This document shows positions 27,598 through 30,666 of a stretch of 64,000 nt of DNA, one piece after another. The stretch covers positions 124,001 through 188,000 of the forward strand of contig CAIJVD010000023.1 of assembly GCA_903824045.1 (NCBI GenBank), in the 5' to 3' direction. The stretch is from an uncultured Chlorobiaceae bacterium. Its GTDB lineage: Bacteria > Bacteroidota > Chlorobiia > Chlorobiales > Chlorobiaceae. The first letter of the stretch is position 1; the number at the start of each line of letters is the position of its first letter. A model generated the notes under the pieces. It saw nothing but the letters and a program-made list of their open reading frames with translations. It was not told the DNA's origin and searched no databases. The translations under genes were made by a program, and so were the position numbers.

Positions 27598-29838
<2,241 letters not shown>

Positions 29839-29856
29839 TTGTTTCGTCAGTCAGCA

Positions 29857-29906
29857 CCATATAACGAGAGAAGCCCGGTTTGCGCCGGGCTTCTCTCGTT
29901 ATATGG
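29857..29906 (+). terminator. Perfect 22-bp stem-loop after icd
   Basis: Bases 29857-29878 and 29885-29906 are perfectly complementary with a 6-nt loop (TTTGCG). There is no long U-run on either side. Lying between two converging genes, it can end or stabilise transcripts from both strands. Confidence 0.85.
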
Positions 29907-30062
29907 GTTTGCGCCCATGGCTACCAACATTTCACCGCTACGCGGTTTGAAAATATGAGGGATTTGTGGACCATGGATGAGATCCCCGAGCCCCCTGGGG
30001 GCGACATGTCTGTAGCCAGGGATGGTAATCCCTGGGATCTCAATTCCCGGAGTGCCATGCAT
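29907..30062. repeat. Probable interspersed repeat element with nested palindromes
   Basis: This about 155-bp segment carries several short palindromes: ACCGC-TAC-GCGGT (29934-29946), CCCCCTGGGGG (29991-30001) and CCAGGGAT-GGTA-ATCCCTGG (30016-30035). It also has the phrases GCGCCCATGGCTAC and CGACATGTCTGTAGCC. From memory, similar phrases recur as dispersed intergenic repeats in several bacterial genomes; I cannot confirm copies elsewhere in this genome. It is readable as a short open frame on the minus strand, which I take as repeat, not gene. It runs into the 3' end of the L,D-transpeptidase gene. Confidence 0.6.
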
Positions 30063-30666
30063 AGATAAAGCCGCCATTGGCGAGTTTGTCGGCTACCTCG
30101 TCAATATCTCCGGCGGCGACGACAAAGCAGCCGTTGCTGCGCCCTATTCTCGGGCCGTTGAAGGTGATGAGGTTCCACAGGATGGTGCCCGCTCCGGCAT
30201 AACTGCCCTTGTGCAGCACGATGTCGCGCATGTTGGCGTTACTGTTCACCTCTGCGTCGAGCCCTTCGAGCCGTATCGCTTTTCCGTGGTCTCCATTGAA
30301 GGCTCCGAGAGAGCGGAAGAGGCCGAGGCTGCTCATGCTCGACTCCTGGGTGTTTGAAAAACGGAGGGCGTAGAGCTCCCCGGAATTTTTGCCATGCGCT
30401 ACCCGGTAAAAGAGCGATTTCCCTGTCGTCAGGTCGATGAGCACCATCCGCTTCAGCCATGAGGGTTTTGAGTAGTCCACCACAGCAAGAGCGCGTGGGA
30501 TCTCTTCCGGATGCGTCGAGAGGTAGTTGTCAAGAGCCGAATATGCCGCTCTGTATGCGCCAATAGAGACCTTCTCCTGACGTTCCAGAAAAGCCACGCC
30601 AAAACCCGCACCGAGGAGCAGCAGGGTTATCGAGAGGTAGATGAGGGGTTTTCGCTGAAACGGCAC
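30040..30666 (-). CDS. Murein L,D-transpeptidase catalytic-domain family protein
   Basis: A 208-residue exported protein. An N-terminal signal/anchor helix (about residues 8-26, IYLSITLLLLGAGFGVAFL) precedes a catalytic part of the PF13645-type L,D-transpeptidase-like family. His152 lies in DIVLHKGSY and the putative nucleophile Cys180 in GRSNGCFVV; this H...SxGC pattern is typical. It probably remodels peptidoglycan cross-links or is a carboxypeptidase in the periplasm. The last few codons (after GGFIYA) lie within the repeat element downstream, so the natural C-terminus may have been replaced. Confidence 0.85.
   Translation of the reverse strand: MPFQRKPLIYLSITLLLLGAGFGVAFLERQEKVSIGAYRAAYSALDNYLSTHPEEIPRALAVVDYSKPSWLKRMVLIDLTTGKSLFYRVAHGKNSGELYALRFSNTQESSMSSLGLFRSLGAFNGDHGKAIRLEGLDAEVNSNANMRDIVLHKGSYAGAGTILWNLITFNGPRIGRSNGCFVVAAGDIDEVADKLANGGFIYAWHSGN

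Follow-up and report, generated by a model that had tools for sequence, protein, structure and literature searches.

The spacer between the convergent genes icd and ldt in a genome of the family Chlorobiaceae (a 2.09-Mb draft) carries an inverted, tail-to-tail dimer of GTAG-tagged REP units, which was most likely moved by a TnpAY1 transposase of the subclass 1.2 type; we put the probability of this reading at about 85%. A REP dimer at the ends of convergent genes is an ordinary case when viewed locally, and the main interest lies in the repeat family to which it belongs and in the probable transposase of that family.

Results

The icd-ldt spacer and its older hairpin

The window is the whole 64,000-nt stretch of DNA that was analysed. 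In it, an ORF at 27613–29838 on the plus strand (stop codon at 29836–29838) encodes the monomeric isocitrate dehydrogenase Icd (PF03971, 1323.8 bits), and its 3' end points toward that of a minus-strand ORF at 30040–30666, here named ldt, which encodes an L,D-transpeptidase (LDT) of 208 aa with a YkuD_2 domain (PF13645, 152 bits). A scan of genome contigs with the LDT protein as query returned no match.

Directly after icd lies a perfect 22-bp hairpin with a 6-nt loop (29857–29906), as had been noticed from the sequence alone; its arms, 29857–29878 and 29885–29906, are 100% complementary and constitute the sole inverted pair reported within 29700–30200. Because a similar hairpin, based on CCCGG, is the best inverted repeat in 25 of the 28 orthologous icd-ldt spacers (the exceptions being L035, L038 and L039), this structure is old; it is a feature separate from the repeat described below and predates it, and the two overlap only at positions 29903–29906, where the right arm of the 22-bp hairpin coincides with the outer arm of the body hairpin of unit A. 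The 22-bp hairpin is probably a bidirectional terminator shared by icd and ldt, a role that we infer, since it was not among the hairpins returned by a pattern scan for GC-rich stems with a T run behind them. The Rfam family LOOT was considered and set aside: its match, which spans the 22-bp hairpin and the first repeat unit, scored 30.3 bits, below the cut-off of 46.4, and represents a generic-hairpin fit.

Two REP units in inverted orientation

The sequence-only reading had described a palindrome-rich element of about 155 bp after icd. Its view of the element as a repeat holds, but the borders do not: recognisable repeat spans 29901–30035, not 29907–30062, and excludes the 22-bp hairpin as a distinct feature. 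The repeat comprises unit A (29901–29946, minus strand) and unit B (29990–30035, plus strand), which are inverted relative to each other, are separated by a 43-nt spacer (29947–29989) and have their GTAG tags pointing inward. Units of the family are 46 nt long and begin with a small hairpin (5 bp, 3-nt loop). A linker of 13 nt follows, whose last bases are GGTAG or TGTAG, which places GTAG at the 5' foot of a second, or body, hairpin that measures 7–8 bp across the aligned units of the same genome. In unit B, the small hairpin occupies 29990–30002, the tag 30012–30015 and the body hairpin 30016–30035 (8 pairs, 4-nt loop). Unit A has its 5-bp hairpin at 29934–29946 and its tag at 29921–29924 on the minus strand; its body hairpin (arms 29903–29907 and 29914–29918) has just 5 pairs around a 6-nt loop, and the outer end is merged with the 22-bp hairpin.

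Because the seven-unit set included the window's own copies, the covariance model R2 was trained on six units, none of them from the window. Scored with R2, unit A reached 42.5 bits (E 9e-10) and unit B 56.2 bits (E 1.9e-13), and a search of the 64 kb at E ≤ 1 returned these two units and nothing else. When the 156-nt stretch was folded as RNA, it was moderately more stable than shuffled sequences (z −2.25 for the plus strand and −1.78 for the minus strand). Unit B is additionally enclosed by a 9-bp outer stem (29978–30042; arms 29978–29986 and 30034–30042), the right arm of which holds the LDT stop codon; no counterpart of this stem was noticed in the other own-genome copies inspected.

A dispersed family with covarying hairpins

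A search of the genome for copies of 29907–30062, which the sequence-only reading had proposed, showed that the element is multi-copy. BLAST gave five rows at E ≤ 1e-3, representing four distinct places including the query itself; the matches were partial and mosaic, and their alignment revealed one unit. The covariance model R1 detected 25 units in the genome at E ≤ 0.01, the window's two included, a count that is a lower bound because scoring covered 150 of the 360 first-look candidates. The copies are dispersed and adjoin different genes. In the seven-unit alignment, 98.8% of cells are paired and 6 of 12 pairs have changed on both sides; the covariation score is 0.452, compared with 0.195 in shuffles (none of 500 reaching the observed value) and 0.07–0.09 when the alignment was slid. 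Covariation is present on four of five measures, the fifth being further pair types, which did not rise above shuffles (398/500).

Across 86 family genomes, R1 matched in 46 at E ≤ 0.1, with ten or more matches in 17 and at least 71 units in the richest; these counts are lower bounds, as part of the candidates were scored. A search with the consensus motif RCATKTYKGTAGCY found five matches in the own genome as against none for the reversed control, and one of the five (L055) is a chance match that lacks hairpins; over the 86 genomes, the motif gave 37 matches versus 47 for the control and was therefore replaced by the covariance models. At five own-genome units (L002, L152, L154, L156 and L159), a longer 3' flank, CCACGCCAACCAAACA, is shared, from which it follows that a composite sub-element exists there; the window copies do not have it.

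Orthologous spacers and the C-terminus of LDT

The 31 ortholog loci examined (L019–L047, L057 and L058) include 28 that contain icd in the same convergent layout and the whole spacer; the other three (L023, L026 and L042) stop short of icd, L026 having only 16 nt past the gene. No repeat unit was found in these 31 loci, and the spacer measures at most 130 nt in 23 of the 28 orthologs versus 201 nt in the window. As no copy of this multi-copy element was found in the 31 ortholog loci, the simplest reading is that it was gained in the lineage of the window. Five of the 28 orthologous spacers exceed 130 nt. By eye, those of 775 and 632 nt (L019 and L031, in G056 and G049) apparently hold the same toxin-antitoxin-type gene pair, and those of 1153 and 1213 nt (L022 and L030, in G013 and G027) hold one exported-protein gene each; the icd-ldt spacer seems tolerant of insertions.

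It had also been proposed that the stop codon and last residues of LDT lie inside the element and that the insertion replaced the protein's natural end. The first claim disagrees with the corrected borders, and the second is not supported by the orthologs. Unit B ends at 30035, and beyond it, in the minus-strand stretch 30036–30054, follow 4 nt, the LDT stop codon (30040–30042) and the four codons of the tail HSGN (30043–30054), all of them outside the unit. The YkuD_2 domain is complete (profile positions 2–169 of 169, reaching aa 204 of 208), and the conserved codons for Y, A and W occupy 30055–30063 in the minus-strand reading. A YAW-type end is kept in the window protein and in all 31 orthologs, and only the tail past YAW varies, with 4–10 aa (median 5) in the orthologs and 4 aa in the window. 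The element is not single-copy, and the C-terminal residues are not conserved either, since nothing past YAW is conserved in any ortholog; a meaningful change of the protein is unsupported. As the YAW-type end is retained and the tails beyond it vary, no conserved part of LDT was lost, and the enzyme is nearly untouched, with no visible effect. The stop codon and at most four variable residues may nevertheless have come with the insertion. The sequence beside the body hairpin differs in the other own-genome units inspected; the window (30035–30045) and L083 (G065) both have GGATCTCAATT a few bases past the body hairpin of a unit, which is the only hint of an element-borne LDT stop and may be due to chance.

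Units adjoin short Y1 transposase genes in relatives

In relatives, a short Y1 transposase (about 153 aa) was found in association with the repeat, and units adjoin all four of its close Chlorobiaceae homologues. At L175 (G065), 109 nt separate the transposase from the nearest full unit, on its upstream side, and 64 nt from a further unit downstream; R1 matches occur on both sides of the gene at L176 (G044) and L178 (G028) and upstream of it at L177 (G005), the transposase-adjacent units of L176 and L177 scoring just about 20–27 bits. Eight more distant homologues were searched, with weak R1 matches in two (L179 and L180) and none in six. Clustered arrays of units were observed at L178 and L176, where stretches of about 3.45 kb contained 8 and 17 R1 matches, respectively, at E ≤ 0.05. 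All four close homologues carry the TnpAY1 subclass 1.2 signature (DH[IV]H, WQ, Y---Q--HH, about 148 aa), and it is by these signature motifs that we assign the short Y1 transposases to this subclass.

The association was examined further in named genomes, where the best 80 of 503 confirmed transposase loci, nearly all from Bacteroidota, were scanned (one of them, L203, is the G028 locus again). A unit composed of a hairpin and GGTAG occurs within 400 nt in 61 of these best 80 of 503 loci, and on both sides in 22. An initial unit rule that admitted only 3-nt loops had given 26 of the same 80; it was widened to loops of 3–5 nt after 14 flanks had been read, and the shuffle and distant-flank controls were redone under the widened rule. 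With it, 62,629 nt near the transposases of the best 80 of 503 loci contained 137 units, compared with 3 units in 86,741 nt taken from distant flanks; shuffled flanks gave a mean of 1.36 loci with a unit and a maximum of 4, as against the 61 observed. R2 finds units at E ≤ 0.05 in just 21 of these 80. The subclass 1.2 signature is present in 73 of the best 80 of 503; in the other seven, the Y motif differs or a stop occurs. As a control, 27 Y1 loci of the genus were used that were classed as "other" simply by not belonging to the short subclass-1.2-like group and whose gene borders are approximate; a unit within about 1000 nt was found in one.

The genome of the window has three Y1 transposases (L049–L051), with frames of 286–327 aa; none has a unit within 400 nt, and for this reason they were rejected as mobilisers. 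Around the gene with the 286-aa frame (L049, G000:C35:68001-71327), inverted copies of another repeat, GGGGTCAGGTCTTGTATTTTGAC, were observed, and this repeat is also present in L010; at one end of the long Y1 genes L050 and L051 (G000:C13 and C24) lie short direct repeats that have AGGGGACG motifs in common with the other side of the gene. A close homologue of the short transposase is absent from the genome at E ≤ 1e-10, and the own-genome copies therefore look like orphans today. One of them (G000, C3:876) lies between an endonuclease-III-like (HhH-GPD, nth-like) gene and nusB; in G065, the transposase and its units lie beside the same nth-like and nusB genes, nusB there being preceded by a metallophosphatase gene. 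Among genomes that lack a close transposase homologue, some are rich in units, with at least 71 in G064, at least 69 in G015 and at least 53 in G001. A comparison of unit copy number in 4 versus 82 genomes gave a p value of 0.0047, with kinship ignored.

Related units match the Rfam family Acido-Lenti-1

Several units, when read as their reverse complement, match Rfam RF01687 (Acido-Lenti-1) over all 46 positions. Nine sources of units were tried against this family, of which four matched and one exceeded the gathering score (39 versus 37 bits); the latter is the own-genome unit G000:C13:64015-64061, at 39.0 bits. The window's own units (29895–30045) gave no match to RF01687 at E ≤ 10, and hence none at the gathering score of 37 bits. 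Over the 86 genomes, 41 have a match at E ≤ 0.1 and nine have one above the cut-off, compared with none above it in 14 control genomes. Among 20 listed RF01687 rows above the cut-off, at least eight coincide with R1 units on the opposite strand; three rows above the cut-off are in G076, a genome in which R1 found no match. RF01687 matches (E ≤ 0.1) lie within 700 nt of at least 5 of 17 subclass-1.2-type genes, where 0.056 would be expected, and one match beside these 17 genes is above the cut-off among the matches listed. Of the best 80 of 503 transposase loci, 20 were compared with RF01687, and none of these 20 matched.

Discussion

The event at the icd-ldt spacer most likely went as follows. 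An HUH/Y1 transposase specific for single strands, similar to TnpAY1 subclass 1.2, recognised the tag and the hairpin in trans and moved the dimer as single-stranded DNA into the spacer, beside the older hairpin. Such an insertion would have lengthened the spacer, and LDT may owe its stop codon and its last four residues to it.

What moved the repeat is the part of this picture that admits the most credible competitor. The dimer might have been placed by another agent, such as the genome's own long Y1 transposases, replication slippage or recombination, in which case the subclass 1.2 transposases elsewhere would simply insert into or beside REPs. This would suit a genome whose Y1 genes have frames of 286–327 aa only, and it would also suit the many unit-rich genomes that have no close subclass 1.2 homologue. 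We nevertheless consider it unlikely: the three own Y1 genes have no unit within 400 nt, and proximity to units differs between the two groups of Y1 loci, with 1 of 27 for the others at about 1000 nt against 61 of the best 80 of 503 at 400 nt. Mobilisation by a subclass 1.2 transposase is the reading that we favour.

Readings that dispense with a mobile repeat fare much worse. A dedicated structured RNA, either Acido-Lenti-1 or a similar sRNA or 3'-UTR element acting on the mRNA of icd or ldt, would be expected to have a conserved two-hairpin structure with covariation, would account for the RF01687 matches of related units (one own-genome copy being above the cut-off) and would suit a position where two genes end. 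It is very improbable, however, given 25 dispersed copies by different genes, ortholog loci in which no unit was found, window copies without an RF01687 match, related units that adjoin transposase genes and the result that no sigma-70-type promoter was found in 29750–30150, although promoters of Chlorobi may differ. We attach almost no credence to an ordinary convergent-gene spacer with locally arisen hairpins, in effect an extended terminator without any repeat; the position between convergent 3' ends, joined to a hairpin present in most orthologs, is consistent with it, but both units match a 25-copy family by a model built without them, and such an origin fits the 22-bp hairpin alone. We retain a REP dimer, probably transposed, as the best explanation of the element.

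For the family as a whole, a broader proposal can be made. RF01687 resembles the reverse complement of the related units in having an 8-bp hairpin with a 4-nt loop, GGCUA, a linker and a 5-bp hairpin with a 3-nt loop; it differs in being listed as an sRNA gene of unknown function, and the window's two units do not match it. On balance, and with some reserve, we favour the view that Acido-Lenti-1, rather than being a dedicated RNA, represents a single strand of a bipartite GTAG repeat that TnpAY1 subclass 1.2 has spread. Each clade of the subclass would then have its own variant, in Bacteroidota as well as in Chlorobiota, and the element in the window would be an orphan copy. Acido-Lenti-1 is named in PMC2864571 (Weinberg 2010), PMC13298647, PMC10059132 and PMC7682815; the accessible portions of the first three do not tie it to REPs or transposases, and the 2026 paper PMC13298647, in the portion available, suggests that it may regulate proteases. 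No report of the repeat or of a link between REPs, the transposase and Acido-Lenti-1 was found among the titles and abstracts covered, most subscription journals and supplements lying outside their scope. A curated "sRNA" family that is still read as a possible regulator has hallmarks of mobile repeat DNA in Chlorobiaceae, and the functions of this "sRNA" family and of the transposase class become directly testable.

Among known systems, the GTAG REPs and their BIME/REPIN arrangements, as described in the available text of Di Nocera 2013 (PMC3733652) and Quentin 2018 (PMC6006769), are the closest to the element. As in those repeats, a short GC-rich hairpin has GTAG at its 5' foot; the defining tag, GTAG or GTGG within 0–2 nt of that foot, is present as GTAG in both window units. 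The pair resembles a BIME/REPIN in being an inverted dimer with its tags inside (TT type), located between convergent 3' ends and near a stop codon; REPs close to convergent 3' ends and REPs that supply stop codons have been reported previously (PMC3733652, which in its accessible text mentions Chlorobi once, for CGTC repeats). The window family likewise has dispersed copies, which in such families are often inverted dimers 20–100 bp apart, as is the window pair with its distance of 43 nt. Of the short-hairpin rule given in the accessible part of PMC6006769, namely a fully paired basal stem of 7–20 pairs with a loop of 2–5 nt, unit B is an example, whereas unit A falls outside it. Unlike the GTAG REPs as they are described there, the window unit is bipartite, with an extra 5-bp hairpin and a linker before the tag, and the own genome has just 25 copies (a lower bound) and lacks a partner transposase flanked by the repeat. 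REP families usually exceed 100 copies per genome according to the available text of PMC2817692, compared with 25 in this genome and 71 at most in the 86 family genomes, both lower bounds.

The enzymes of the relatives share with TnpAY1 subclass 1.2 a length of about 150 aa and the motifs DHxH, WQ and YxxxQxxHH. In the accessible text of PMC6006769, this subclass generally lacks the typical terminal structures of IS200, and Table 1 gives "no" for REP; in contrast to that entry, most of the subclass-1.2-type genes studied here lie near hairpin+GGTAG units, so that a TnpAY1 subclass tabulated without a partner repeat gains a candidate one.
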